This document shows positions 17,909 to 41,792 of a DNA stretch of 64,000 nt, piece by piece; the first letter of the stretch is position 1; every line of letters begins with the position of its first letter. The notes beneath the pieces are model-generated. The model was not told the origin of the DNA and made no database searches. It saw only the letters and a program-made list of their open reading frames with translations. Source of the DNA: Leeia oryzae DSM 17879 (lineage in GTDB: Bacteria > Pseudomonadota > Gammaproteobacteria > Burkholderiales > Leeiaceae); the NCBI RefSeq assembly GCF_000376945.1, contig NZ_AQXU01000023.1, positions 62,001-126,000 on the forward strand, read 5' to 3'. Both the position numbers and the translations under genes were made by a program.

Positions 17909-18253
17909 GCAGTTGCCCGTCTAGCGACTGATAACCCGTTTTCGTTATAAAATTCTGTGTTCATTGTGTTGCTTCTTATTATTAGAGCATAACAGATGTT
18001 TGCTGCAATTGTTGTATAGAAAAAAGCATTATGCGTAAAGGGTTCACTGTACAATGTGCATCAGAAATTAAACGGCGCTATGCTGTCAATCGTTTATTGC
18101 ACGTCAATTACGTAATCTCAATCCTATGTGAGCGTGTGCATTATACGCATTTAACACATATTCAATATGAGTTATTGTCAACCTTTTACTGTACCCGAGC
18201 GTTATTTTCCGGATGCTTTTCGAGTTTAATCAAACAATATAATTGAGTGTCAA
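17909..18253. other. Divergent AT-rich intergenic region
   Basis: These 345 bases separate two divergent genes and are AT-rich. No convincing gene is present; the 71-codon frame at 18031-18246 lacks a Shine-Dalgarno and family-like sequence. A perfect TATAAT lies at 18238-18243 but only ten bases before the downstream ATG, without a good -35 box. No LexA-type operator was found. Confidence 0.5.
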
Positions 18254-38743: not shown

Positions 38744-38845
38744 GTAGTGTGTAGCAGCACCCGGTTTATGAAGTGTTTGCAATGCGGCCTATCCGGTATG
38801 GCCTGGTATGAATAGGGATGCAGCGTCAAAGCTTGAGGAATGGCT

Positions 38846-40060
38846 ATGTTAACGAATGATAATCTACTCGTGGAACGCCCAAGATTGTTGATCGTGGATG
38901 ATTCGCGCATGGTCCGGGCATCTCTGAAAAAACATCTTGCAGATACATATGACCTGCTGGAAGAGGCGGACGGTGAGGCAGGGTGGGCACGCTTGACGCT
39001 GGATAACATGATTCAGCTGGTGATCAGTGATGTATCCATGCCCAAACTGGATGGCCATGCCTTGTTACAGCGCATCCGCTCATCTGAAGACCAGAGAATC
39101 CGCCGGGTACCTGTCATCATCATTTCCGGAGATGACGATGATGATGCAAAAAGTCATGCCGTATCGCTTGGGGCGAGTGATTTCATTACCAAATCTACAG
39201 ATCAGGTTGAGCTCCTGGCTCGCATCCAGTCGAATCTTGCCCGTTCAACCGCAGAAAAAGAATTGGTCGAGGCGCAGAAAACCATTGCGGAAGATGCGAC
39301 GACGGATGCTGTAACAGGGCTTTTTACAAGAAACAGCCTGATCAAGCAAGGCGACAAGCTGCTTGCCTATACTCGCAGGCATGATCAGGCCATGTCTGTT
39401 CTCTCGTTGACAATAGACCGGTTTGACGAGCTTTTAAACCGTTACCCGGAAGCCGTCTGTAACAAGATACTGCAACTGGTGGGCAAAATGCTGACTGGCA
39501 AGCTGCGTGGTGAAGACGTGGTGGCCCGTTGTGAGGATCAGCACTTTGTCATCGTGTTGCCGGTTGCGTCTTTGAATCAGGCACTGATTGCGGCTGACCG
39601 GATTTGCCAGTCTACCAGTGCCGCCAAAATCACCTTTAAAGGCGATACCATCAAATTGTCCTGTAGCATTGGTGTGGCTAGCCGGGATCAGATCGAGAAA
39701 GAACATGATTTCTTAAGTTTGTTATCGCTGGCGGTCGCCAGACGTAAACATGCACAAGATCAGGGGGGTAACTGGATTGAGGCAAATCTGGCAGTTGAAG
39801 TGGCCTCCACGGAGCCAGCTCCACTGCTGCCAATGTCTGCTGAGAACACAGTCAGTCCGGATGCGGGCCAGATCGAGTCTGACAATATCAAAATCCAGCA
39901 AGCCATTGACTGGCTAACGGCAGGCAGGCATGAAGAGGTTATTGCACACATGCCAGCACTCTTCCACGAGCTGCTGCCACTCTTGGAGCTCATGAATGCA
40001 TATTATGGTTTGGGTTTGCCGCTCGATGCGGCCAGACAGAAAATGCAAAACAACAGTTGA
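38846..40060 (+). CDS. Response regulator with degenerate GGDEF domain
   Basis: A 404-residue cytoplasmic protein. The receiver domain (about residues 11-130) has acidic residues Asp18 and Asp19, the phosphoacceptor Asp62 (SDVSMP) and Lys116. The second domain has the length and flanking pattern of GGDEF, but the signature reads EDQHF at 230-234, so cyclase activity is not expected. The RxxD inhibitory motif is kept as RGED at 221-224 with exact spacing, suggesting a cyclic-di-GMP receptor. About 90 residues of unknown helical sequence follow. ATG at 38846 is chosen because GAGGA lies six bases upstream; ATG at 38840 would abut it. Confidence 0.88.
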   Translation: MLTNDNLLVERPRLLIVDDSRMVRASLKKHLADTYDLLEEADGEAGWARLTLDNMIQLVISDVSMPKLDGHALLQRIRSSEDQRIRRVPVIIISGDDDDDAKSHAVSLGASDFITKSTDQVELLARIQSNLARSTAEKELVEAQKTIAEDATTDAVTGLFTRNSLIKQGDKLLAYTRRHDQAMSVLSLTIDRFDELLNRYPEAVCNKILQLVGKMLTGKLRGEDVVARCEDQHFVIVLPVASLNQALIAADRICQSTSAAKITFKGDTIKLSCSIGVASRDQIEKEHDFLSLLSLAVARRKHAQDQGGNWIEANLAVEVASTEPAPLLPMSAENTVSPDAGQIESDNIKIQQAIDWLTAGRHEEVIAHMPALFHELLPLLELMNAYYGLGLPLDAARQKMQNNS

Positions 40061-40080: not shown

Positions 40081-40120
40081 AAAAAATACCCCGGAGAATC
40101 ATGTCTACCGGGGTATTTTT
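40081..40120. terminator. Bidirectional terminator after the receiver-GGDEF gene and DUF3106 gene
   Basis: TACCCCGG (40087-40094) pairs with CCGGGGTA (40108-40115); A6 precedes and T5 follows. The 13-base loop is AT-rich. It overlaps the stop codon of the converging DUF3106 gene, so both genes can end here. Confidence 0.9.
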
Positions 40121-40553
40121 ATGGTGCTGTACTGGCAGCGACAGGCTTGGGTGGTATTAACTTCTTTGCTGGTTTAGCTGAAGCCGCACTTTCTTTCTGC
40201 TGCTTACTAATTGTTTTTTGCTGCTGTACTGGCAAGGCTTTGTATTTCAGGTATTGTTCCCGGGCTTTTTTGCGTTGCTCGGGGGTCATGGCTACCCATT
40301 GCTTTAGCCTCTTTTGCAGTCTTTCTTGCTGTTCTTTCGGCAGAGAGTCATATCGCGAAGCAATACCCAGCATGCTGTTGCGTTGATGCTCTCCCAGTTT
40401 TCCCCAGTCATTGGCCAGCGGTGCTAGCACCGATTTTTGCTTACTGGTCAGTTGGGACCAGGATGCCGGCGCTTCTGGCGTGACGGCCACAGCTAAGCCA
40501 GACCACAAGCCAAGCACCAATATCAGGAAGGATTGCGTGTATCTTCTAGCCAT
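40119..40553 (-). CDS. DUF3106 periplasmic protein
   Basis: A 144-residue protein with a signal peptide (basic start, hydrophobic core, cleavage near residue 23 after AVA) and a charged, helical mature part. Two segments, QLTSKQKSVLAPL and AMTPEQRKKAREQ, resemble the LTxxQ repeats of the Spy/CpxP periplasmic proteins, and a Lys/Pro/Ala-rich tail follows. It belongs to DUF3106, usually found with a sigma factor and a DUF3619 gene, as here. The start overlaps the DUF3619 gene by 31 bases. A role as periplasmic sensor or chaperone-like part of the sigma system is my inference. Confidence 0.82.
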   Translation of the reverse strand: MARRYTQSFLILVLGLWSGLAVAVTPEAPASWSQLTSKQKSVLAPLANDWGKLGEHQRNSMLGIASRYDSLPKEQQERLQKRLKQWVAMTPEQRKKAREQYLKYKALPVQQQKTISKQQKESAASAKPAKKLIPPKPVAASTAP

Positions 40554-40900
40554 TTGGAAAACTGTTCATCCAGATATGCGTGAGGTGGAAGCTCATCAGT
40601 TAATAATTGAGTATCGACGTCAACTTGGTCTTGGGTGTCCTGAGCGGTCATCCACCAGCCCGCCCCAATCGCCAGTGTGAGCAGACAAGCGCTCGCAGAA
40701 TAGGCAAACGGGTGTTGTGCCAGATGCAGGACGTGGGAAACTTTCCACCATGTACTGCGTTCTTCTGCCGGTTTGTATTGGCTGAGGGCGGATTGTCTTG
40801 CTGTGGCCAGACGCAATTGCAAGCGCTCGGATTCATTCTCAAGGCGATGATCCAGCGCGGCTTTTACTAGCCGGGCTGTGTGCTGATGCGAATCAGTCAT
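40523..40900 (-). CDS. DUF3619 membrane protein, putative anti-sigma factor
   Basis: A 125-residue protein with a cytoplasmic N-terminal part of about 65 residues, one membrane segment (about residues 70-92, ASACLLTLAIGAGWWM) and a short acidic periplasmic tail. This single-pass layout and the location directly after a sigma factor gene suggest an anti-sigma factor, though it has no recognisable zinc-binding HxxxCxxC motif. ATG at 40900 is well supported by AAGGAG seven bases upstream. It overlaps the sigma gene stop by eight bases, so the two are translationally coupled. A longer frame reaching 40921 lacks a good signal. Confidence 0.82.
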   Translation of the reverse strand: MTDSHQHTARLVKAALDHRLENESERLQLRLATARQSALSQYKPAEERSTWWKVSHVLHLAQHPFAYSASACLLTLAIGAGWWMTAQDTQDQVDVDTQLLTDELPPHAYLDEQFSKWLEDTRNPS

Positions 40901-41465
40901 GATCTGTCTCCTTGATGCCATGTTCCGATAGCCATTGTGTCAGACTGGCATTGGCCCTGGCACAGTGTGTTTTTACGCTGCCTTCCGAGCACCCCATCAG
41001 GGCGGCCGTGGTGGCAACATCGTGTTCTTCCCAGTAACGGAGCAGGAATGCTTCTCGCTGTCGTGCTGGCAGCCGGGCTAAGCCGGCTTCAATAATGTTG
41101 ATGGTTTGCTGGTTACCCAGCATCTTGCGCGGATCTTGCCCGTAGGAAGACTCACTTTCAACGGTGGATAGCAGGTCCACTTCATCATCATCGTCTTCTT
41201 TGGTGAAGAGACTGAACGGCAGTACCCAGAAATTCCGGACCTTTTGCCGACGATGGTGATCGGTAATCACGTTTTGCAATATACGATGAAAAAGCATGGG
41301 TAGCTCTTCCACCGGTTTGTCCTGGTATTTGTCTACCAGCTTCAGCATGGCATCCTGAACCAGGTCTAGCGCAGTATCTTCATGCTGTACGGCTAATCGT
41401 GCGTGTCTGTAGGCGCGTTTTTCTATATCAACAAGAAATTGCGACAGTTCTGCTCTACTAGCCAT
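40893..41465 (-). CDS. ECF-type sigma-70 family RNA polymerase sigma factor
   Basis: A 190-residue alternative sigma factor with region 2 (ALDLVQDAMLKLVDKY, LPMLFHRILQNVITDHHRR) and region 4 (LARLPARQREAFLLRYWEEHDVATTAALMGCSEGSVKTH), joined by an acidic linker with EDDDDE. It lacks regions 1.1 and 3, as expected for the ECF group. It is the first gene of a three-gene unit with DUF3619 and DUF3106 products that probably hold it at the membrane until a signal arrives. The start at 41465 has only a weak Shine-Dalgarno. ECF promoters cannot be predicted with confidence here. Confidence 0.93.
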   Translation of the reverse strand: MASRAELSQFLVDIEKRAYRHARLAVQHEDTALDLVQDAMLKLVDKYQDKPVEELPMLFHRILQNVITDHHRRQKVRNFWVLPFSLFTKEDDDDEVDLLSTVESESSYGQDPRKMLGNQQTINIIEAGLARLPARQREAFLLRYWEEHDVATTAALMGCSEGSVKTHCARANASLTQWLSEHGIKETDHD

Positions 41466-41792
41466 TTGGCAAGGCCTTCTGGCAACAATCTGATGTTTCT
41501 TTGTCTTTTAAACGTAACACAATAAATCCGGTTGACATGAAATTAAGATAATAGTGATTTACATAAACTTTTCAAGAGGCCGAATAGTATGAGCTTTGCC
41601 GGTTTTTGGCTATCAAAACATAATAGGCCATGCGGGTGTTGTTGTCAGGGGCAACAAGGTAAAATGTCATACTTAATGTCATGTATGGACCCAAGTCCAT
41701 TCGTGTGTAGTAGAGGCCAAAAAGATGAGGTGCACCAGCCGCAGGGGCGGCCATGGTGTGACCACATCATACAGACAAGTTAGGTAGAGCGG
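41466..41792. other. Divergent intergenic region between the sigma factor and rnhA
   Basis: These 327 bases hold no supported gene; two frames of about 60 codons on opposite strands have no family-like sequence or Shine-Dalgarno. TTGACA occurs at 41532-41537 on the plus strand without a convincing -10 box, and a TTGTTG/CAACAA hairpin lies near 41640-41660. The region should contain the promoters of both flanking genes. Confidence 0.5.

Follow-up and report, generated by a model that had tools for sequence, protein, structure and literature searches.

Three small genes that overlap one another on the minus strand of a 64,000-nucleotide stretch of Leeia oryzae DSM 17879 (contig NZ_AQXU01000023.1, positions 62,001 to 126,000; hereafter the window) encode an extracytoplasmic function (ECF) sigma factor and two members of the domain-of-unknown-function (DUF) families DUF3619 and DUF3106, and they raise the question of whether the three products form one signaling line across the inner membrane. 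We consider it likely, with a probability of roughly three in four, that the cassette works by itself as a transmembrane ECF sigma switch, with DUF3619 as the anti-sigma factor. The gene set and its order, the charge topology, the repeat in DUF3106, an upstream motif, natural fusions, and head swaps, from which the argument is built, were computed directly. A full-text literature search confined to open-licence papers returned no mention of DUF3619, DUF3106, PF12279, PF11304, or PRK09047.

We propose that the N-terminal two-helix head of DUF3619 would clamp the sigma factor in the cytoplasm, helix 1 lying against region 4 and helix 2 against region 2, that one helix would span the inner membrane, and that a short acidic tail ending in D..F..WL would reach the periplasm, an arrangement by which DUF3619 would keep the sigma factor at the membrane. 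The exported DUF3106 protein, a row of 18-residue helical repeats, would bind the DUF3619 tail or report on the periplasm and would thereby set whether DUF3619 holds or frees the sigma factor. A periplasmic signal passing through DUF3106 would free the sigma factor, which would then transcribe its own operon from a GTCAACC-N15-CGTT promoter.

Organization and distribution of the cassette

The sigma factor gene (41465-40893, minus strand) encodes 190 residues with regions 2 and 4 only; the protein scores above the cutoffs of both Pfam Sigma70_r2 and r4_2 and belongs to NCBIfam NF006550 (PRK09047), with 247.6 bits against a curated cutoff of 173. The gene for DUF3619, the proposed transmembrane anti-sigma factor, follows at 40900-40523 (minus; 125 residues; Pfam PF12279, 67.1 bits against a gathering cutoff of 22.2), and the gene for DUF3106, an exported, basic protein of 144 residues, occupies 40553-40119 (minus; Pfam PF11304, 87.7 bits against a gathering cutoff of 24.3). 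With the ATG at 40900 as the DUF3619 start, the first two genes overlap by 8 nucleotides, a value that an alternative, longer DUF3619 open reading frame from 40921 would raise to 29, and the second and third overlap by 31. The earlier note on this DNA had described the three genes as coupled by overlaps of 8 and 31 bases, and the minus-strand coordinates and family scores confirm that description. Among 385 cassettes in which a start was found, the sigma stop overlaps the DUF3619 start in 354, and by 4 nucleotides in 299, the start being taken as the ATG nearest the sigma stop, a choice that favors short overlaps.

The three-gene arrangement is not due to chance, because the families come and go together and their order is kept. 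When 300 genomes from the same order were sampled, all three families were present in 210, none of them in 74, and some but not all in 16 (counted singly, the sigma factor was above its cutoff in 218, DUF3619 was matched in 217, and DUF3106 was found in 219), and the triad stands in the same order and on the same strand in 449 of 486 stretches, most of which had been retrieved through a match to one of the genes and some of which repeat one place. The stretches kept yielded 404 unique sigma-DUF3619 pairs, 401 of them with DUF3106. Of the 80 top-ranking named loci from the sigma factor search, 77 hold the triad; neither sigma partner was found at loci L145 and L172, and L151 runs out at a contig end without DUF3106. 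The named loci include those of Gallionella, Nitrosomonas, Methylophilus, Zoogloea, Massilia, and Paraburkholderia. More widely, DUF3106 exceeds its cutoff in 92 of 339 genomes at class level, in 13 of 200 in a phylum sample, and in 99 of 170 in the order to which genome G012 belongs. The Pfam DUF3619 model matches 31 of 369 genomes of the class, and the sigma factor adjoins it in 28 of the 30 loci fetched; the DUF3619 model seems narrow in scope, given that a DUF3106 search of the class yields three times the number of genomes. Two DUF families gain a testable role from this reading, and an ECF system with such a distribution in the order and the class becomes open to experiment.

Predicted topology of DUF3619 and its couplings with the sigma factor

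In 299 relatives, the strongest hydrophobic stretch of DUF3619 has a median Kyte-Doolittle mean of 1.94, reaching at least 1.6 in 83% of them, and K plus R residues number 3.37 per 25 residues before it and 0.62 after it. Because of this charge bias, the protein is predicted to have its N terminus inside and its C terminus outside. In the window protein, the predicted cytoplasmic two-helix head, residues 1 to 45 (40766..40900, minus), is the proposed sigma-binding part and was defined by an AlphaFold2 (AF2) model and by couplings; a hydropathy scan places the membrane segment at about residues 64 to 85 (40646..40711, minus); and residues 90 to 125 (40526..40633, minus) form an acidic, putatively periplasmic tail with a conserved D..F..WL. 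Conservation of the tail in 397 relatives is 0.91 for F, 0.86 for W, and 0.87 for L, and its mean net charge is -6.4. The AF2 model, for which 74 of 78 named-locus proteins were supplied beside the window protein, has helices at 3-21, 25-41, 55-62, 64-101 (the last of these containing the membrane segment), 106-110, and 112-122, with a predicted local distance difference test (pLDDT) value of 76. A short two-helix cytoplasmic head before a membrane helix is the layout of the class II (CnrY-like) anti-sigma factors, which DUF3619 shows in prediction only. CnrY of Cupriavidus metallidurans belongs to this class and has two helices, the first going to sigma4 and the second to sigma2, according to PMC7406223, so that the likeness lies between its two-helix sigma-binding part and the predicted head of DUF3619.

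The same placing is suggested by a mean-field coupling analysis of 397 sigma-DUF3619 pairs (effective number, 286). Coverage filtering reduced the rows from 299 to 293 in the first run and from 401 to 397 and then 393 in the second. The top-ranked couplings were W145-L16 and Q48-Y42, and 18 of the top 20 couplings of the head joined helix 1 with sigma4 or helix 2 with sigma2, against 10 expected (permutation p=0.0002); at other list lengths the pattern held for 9 of 10 (p=0.015) and 29 of 40 (p=0.003), and with a second weighting for 9 of 10, 16 of 20, and 27 of 40 (p=0.013, 0.0026, and 0.010, respectively). Sigma positions 138, 141, and 145 couple to DUF3619 positions 12, 15, 16, and 17, in the manner of one helix face lying on another. 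In a three-protein control run with 393 triples, 25 of 30 and 32 of 40 head couplings followed the pattern; at these two list lengths, 54 overlapping control windows in DUF3106 reached maxima of 22 and 29 and 26 control windows in the membrane and tail parts of DUF3619 reached 18 and 24, with either orientation allowed in scoring them. The coupling pattern would thus agree with the placing of CnrY on its sigma factor. The two-helix head and its seat on the sigma factor are predicted, from modeling and coupling, and the sigma-holding step by DUF3619 is supported by several lines of evidence. Partner shuffling within sigma clusters was set aside: nearly every sub-block, including impossible ones, beat that null, which was uninformative because one cluster contained 197 of the 293 rows.

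Natural fusions

In locus L453, a complete sigma factor (111.5 bits; profile positions 2 to 171 of 171) is joined in frame to a DUF3619 part with head (36 bits), hydrophobic stretch, and tail, and DUF3106 follows as a separate reading frame. Three further loci (L470, L477, and L481) have a degenerate sigma factor, DUF3619, and DUF3106 in one chain; with profiles built without these three and E values calculated for a set of 16 proteins, the DUF3619 parts gave 1.2e-8, 3.5e-6, and 2.9e-8, respectively, and the DUF3106 parts gave E values below 1e-20. L491 joins sigma-like and DUF3106 parts without a DUF3619 match, and the Pfam DUF3106 model is above its cutoff in L470, L477, L481, and L491. Eleven more proteins (L245, L246, L482, L484-L487, L489, L490, L492, and L493) combine a degenerate sigma-like part with a hydrophobic stretch (1.77 to 2.68), with DUF3106 in a separate reading frame and DUF3619 matches ranging from an E value of 5e-6 to none. 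All 16 fused chains fall in the order of G012. Because the parts occur fused, the sigma factor, DUF3619, and DUF3106 would be expected to act as one line, and the natural fusions are ready single-chain constructs for structure work.

A sigma factor and an anti-sigma factor in one chain, as in L453, are also found in IutY of Pseudomonas putida, a sigma/anti-sigma protein of cell-surface signaling with an outer membrane receptor according to PMC5411451; L453 and its relatives differ in that they carry DUF3619 and adjoin or include DUF3106. As a separate observation, the second cassettes represented by the 11 proteins listed above may be receptors that no longer bind promoters.

Upstream patterns

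The putative autoregulatory ECF promoter, GTCAACC-N15-CGTT, lies at 41511..41536 (minus), 71 nucleotides upstream of the sigma start codon, and a scan of the genome of the window recovered it at this position. The form GTCAA-N16..18-CGTT was found upstream of 44 of 298 sigma genes, that of the window included, against a mean of 0.82 and a maximum of 3 in Markov shuffles and 2 in a reversed control; of these cases, 39 came from the 77 cassettes outside the order and 5 from the 221 within it. Another form, TANNG-N13..15-GGTCAAG, precedes 93 of the 221 cassettes in the order and none of the 77 outside it, with 0.06 expected over all 298, and 164 of the 298 have neither pattern as written. Both patterns were chosen after the same regions had been viewed, and related cassettes have inherited them in common; the shuffles therefore make the case look stronger than it is. 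ECF promoters characteristically have AAC in the -35 element and GT in the -10 element. Since both upstream patterns resemble ECF promoters, the operon probably drives itself.

DUF3106: export, repeats, and candidate role

The DUF3106 protein of the window has a signal-peptide-like start, and 279 of 299 relatives have a strongly hydrophobic N-terminal stretch. Motif spacing and AF2 helices delimit its 18-residue helical repeats to residues 32 to 125 (40179..40460, minus), where L/M-x-x-x-Q motifs recur with an exact period of 18 at L35, L53, L71, M89, and L107 and W or Y stands at 32, 50, 68, 86, and 104. Two to five LTxxQ-like motifs are present in 266 of the 299 proteins, and successive motifs are spaced by 18 residues in 327 instances, by 36 in 164, by 54 in 73, by 33 in 54, and by 15 in 43. 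The AF2 model, for which 62 of 77 named-locus proteins were used beside the window protein, has helices at 37-42, 55-66, 73-88, 91-106, and 109-125, with a pLDDT of at least 90 at 94 of 144 residues. The core is basic (mean charge, +7.1) and positive in 95.7% of the proteins, and the DUF3619 tail is negative in 99.5% (397 sequences), a pairing that would suit binding. It is on the grounds of co-occurrence, fusion, and charge that DUF3106 is given its step in the mechanism, and its action on the tail is our inference, as are the way in which the sigma factor is released, autoregulation, and the kind of signal, which may be envelope stress.

DUF3106 might instead be an output of the system, namely, an envelope protein or a periplasmic chaperone of the Spy/CpxP type, induced by the sigma factor and giving feedback at most. 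Such a role would suit the last of three genes and a protein with LTxxQ-like motifs, and the DUF3106 profile scores 12.8 bits with CpxP and 10.4 bits with Spy, above 200 shuffles of each (maxima, 5.4 and 5.8, respectively). Against it, DUF3106 tracks the sigma-DUF3619 pair in presence and absence, as the counts of 210, 74, and 16 genomes given above indicate, and shares one chain with a membrane part in L470, L477, L481, and L491; given the co-occurrence and the fusions, a regulator tied to the tail fits better than a free chaperone, and we regard the output role as unlikely. Fold searches also gave no match to Spy or CpxP, although a missing match is not decisive: Foldseek comparison of the DUF3106 model with the PDB returned nothing at an E value of 0.001 or below, hhalign gave probabilities below 2% with Spy, CpxP, and ZraP, and a second look with VIA-align at 82 of 84 chains had a best Z of 3.3, for an unrelated chain.

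The DUF3106 profile did not rise above shuffles for ZraP (7.4 against 7.6 bits) or CnrX (1.0 against 5.5), and a Pfam search of DUF3106 at E values up to 1 returned only PF11304 and a match to PF13801 (Metal_resist/CnrX) below cutoff (15.7 bits against 29.2; E=0.018), with no LTxxQ family profile. The best hit of the DUF3106 profile among solved chains, a short stretch of a Dyp-type peroxidase with an E value of 0.018, was taken as chance. DUF3106 thus resembles Spy and CpxP in being exported and in what appears to be a common LTxxQ motif, with a weak profile score above shuffles; common descent was not established by profile, hhalign, or fold comparisons. The proteins also differ in arrangement, since two LTxxQ motifs stand 73 residues apart in Spy/CpxP whereas those of DUF3106 mostly recur every 18 residues or multiples of 18, and the neighbors of the CpxP gene are the two-component genes cpxAR, whereas DUF3106 is encoded beside an ECF sigma factor. 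The exported protein with LTxxQ-like segments that the earlier note had described was borne out in its signal-peptide-like start and periodic motifs, whereas the Spy/CpxP fold that it had invoked found no Foldseek match and an hhalign probability below 2%. Separately, the Pfam DUF3106 model matches E. coli below its cutoff, and CpxP and Spy are candidates for that match by their profile scores above shuffles.

We offer only tentatively, at somewhat less than even odds, the further suggestion that the cassette may represent a transmembrane ECF switch of a class not described before: a basic protein of 18-residue LTxxQ repeats, which would take up the Spy/CpxP idea in repeat form and link it to a sigma factor, would read the acidic tail of the anti-sigma factor. 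In the order of G012, such a switch would also have given rise to single-chain receptors that extend from a sigma-like domain across the membrane to a DUF3106 repeat in the periplasm.

Counterevidence, alternative classes, and known systems

Several results weigh against a sigma switch with DUF3619 as its anti-sigma factor. The membrane segment of the window DUF3619 protein is weak (Kyte-Doolittle mean of 1.26 over 19 residues), and the AF2 model has a predicted template modeling score (pTM) of 0.31. Comparison of DUF3619 with CnrY gave an hhalign probability of 0.2% and a profile score of 2.7 bits against a best shuffle of 9.9; a DUF3619 profile search of solved chains had a best E value of 0.29, and Foldseek comparison of the model with the PDB gave no match at 0.001 or below, a lack of matches that does not argue for a new fold. 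(A sigma factor profile search of solved chains likewise returned none at 0.001.) In the couplings, the head did no better than the best control window at list lengths of 20 and 10 (16 against 16 and 8 against 9, respectively), and impossible pairs reached z values of 7.4 (sigma-DUF3106) and 8.3 (DUF3619 head-DUF3106, first run), for which reason coupling strength was rejected as proof of contact. Couplings with z over 4 were no more frequent for sigma-DUF3619 (10 of 18036) than for sigma-DUF3106 (14 of 15698), and the distance correlation of 0.70 for sigma-DUF3619 did not single this pair out from the others (0.73 and 0.71). The helix pattern was first noticed in the run of 293 pairs, to which the repeat added 104 sequences, so the repeat was not blind.

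The fusions, the charges, and the promoter also supply points of this kind. The Pfam DUF3619 model scores 20.0 bits in L453, below its cutoff of 22.2, and finds no DUF3619 in L470, L477, and L481; the sigma part is degenerate in 15 of the 16 fused chains, all but L453, and those 15 are second copies, the other DUF3106 place of the genome being a normal triad. The charges of DUF3106 and of the DUF3619 tail are uncorrelated (r=0.007), and the DUF3619-DUF3106 couplings have no clear preference for the tail, which accounts for 4 of the top 10, 6 of the top 20, and 23 of the top 50 while making up 30 of 108 columns. The pattern GTCAACC-N14-16-CGTT is not enriched in the genome of the window, with 7 sites against 14 in a backward control, and no regulon was found there. 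The architecture drawn by the earlier note, a line of sigma factor, transmembrane anti-sigma factor, and exported partner, is well supported computationally by the conserved triad, the topology, the coupling pattern, the fusions, and the zinc-type heads described below; the envelope-stress signal and the Spy/CpxP fold that it had attached to this line were not established.

The class of the putative anti-sigma factor is a further question, because DUF3619 might belong to class I, diverged beyond the reach of the profiles, rather than to the CnrY-like two-helix kind. In 5 of 404 cassettes (L356, L357, L358, L363, and L364), the middle protein has a zinc-type Hx3Cx2C head, typical of class I zinc anti-sigma domains, joined to a tail of the same type: a hydrophobic stretch and a tail with DFYxW or EFYxW complete these proteins, which sit between a sigma factor of the cassette profile (162 to 215 bits) and DUF3106. 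The zf-HC2 model scores 22.8 bits in L357, above its cutoff of 22.2, and 18.5 in L356 and 18.1 in L363, below it, and was not found in L358 or L364; a sixth match to Hx3Cx2C, in L167, was dropped, the motif lying in letters before the likely start. The conserved RLxxARxxAL of DUF3619 helix 2 may moreover match the last helix of class I domains. Against a diverged class I domain stand the length of the head, only about 45 residues before the linker with two predicted helices, and the absence of Hx3Cx2C from the window DUF3619 protein, and we judge this assignment improbable. The zinc-head variants suggest that anti-sigma heads may be swappable on a constant tail.

It is very improbable that the cassette is a metal-sensing system homologous to CnrYXH, which consists of the same parts (sigma factor, single-pass anti-sigma factor, and periplasmic protein) and to which the weak PF13801 match might point, since sequence comparisons found no relation between DUF3619 and CnrY or between DUF3106 and CnrX and DUF3106 has no conserved His (maximum column value, 0.08) or Cys (0.00) in 397 sequences.

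A sigma factor with a single-pass anti-sigma factor and a periplasmic partner is nevertheless an already known kind of system. In E. coli, RpoE-RseA-RseB consists of a sigma factor, a single-pass anti-sigma factor, and a periplasmic protein acting on the anti-sigma tail; a Pfam search at E values up to 1 linked neither DUF3619 nor DUF3106 to an RseA or RseB family. CnrYXH of C. metallidurans (ECF sigma factor CnrH, anti-sigma factor CnrY, and sensor CnrX) resembles the cassette in its three small adjoining genes, ECF sigma factor, and periplasmic partner. It differs in gene order (Y-X-H rather than sigma, DUF3619, DUF3106), in a sigma factor to which that of the window is 27% identical over 150 columns, and in having no detectable homology to DUF3619 or DUF3106, the latter without conserved His or Cys. 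What is new here is the presence of unassigned families in both regulatory places, the repeat-type exported partner, the head swaps, and the single-chain forms. The DUF3619 tail and the DUF3106 repeat mark where the signal probably enters.

Neighboring genes and minor observations

An inverted repeat of 13 bp without mismatches and with runs of A and T, read in the sequence at 40082..40120 (no strand assigned), is a probable two-way terminator. It sits between DUF3106 and a convergent gene for a response-regulator/GGDEF protein (38840-40060, plus), with which the cassette would have the terminator in common; a terminator scan with a loop limit of 8 does not list the repeat, whose loop exceeds that limit. 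At its other end, the cassette starts opposite a gene that reads by eye as rnhA. A second copy of GTCAACC-N-CGTT stands at 18177-18203 (plus) in the window, 77 nucleotides upstream of a reading frame (L371) that by eye resembles a major facilitator superfamily (MFS) transporter, and by our reading only the sigma gene and this MFS-like gene are well placed behind a site in the genome; because the pattern is not enriched genome-wide, this copy may be due to chance.

Downstream of DUF3106, 57 of the 73 named loci that extend far enough carry a gene for an RDD-family membrane protein (for example, L063:1885-2319, plus), a place that is taken in the window by the convergent gene. By estimated starts, the gap between DUF3619 and DUF3106 is at least 120 nucleotides in 55% of cassettes outside the order and in 14% of those inside it, with L234 miscounted to the wrong side. 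At L342:1729-2007 and L366:2414-2656 (plus), a small reading frame of 81 to 93 residues just before DUF3106 has a hydrophobic stretch and an EFLGEWQ/EFIADWE motif; a Pfam search of it gave nothing at E values up to 1. Very arginine-rich relatives of DUF3106 occur at L344:1910-2482 (plus) and at L352 (minus strand), where the middle protein is of unusual sequence.

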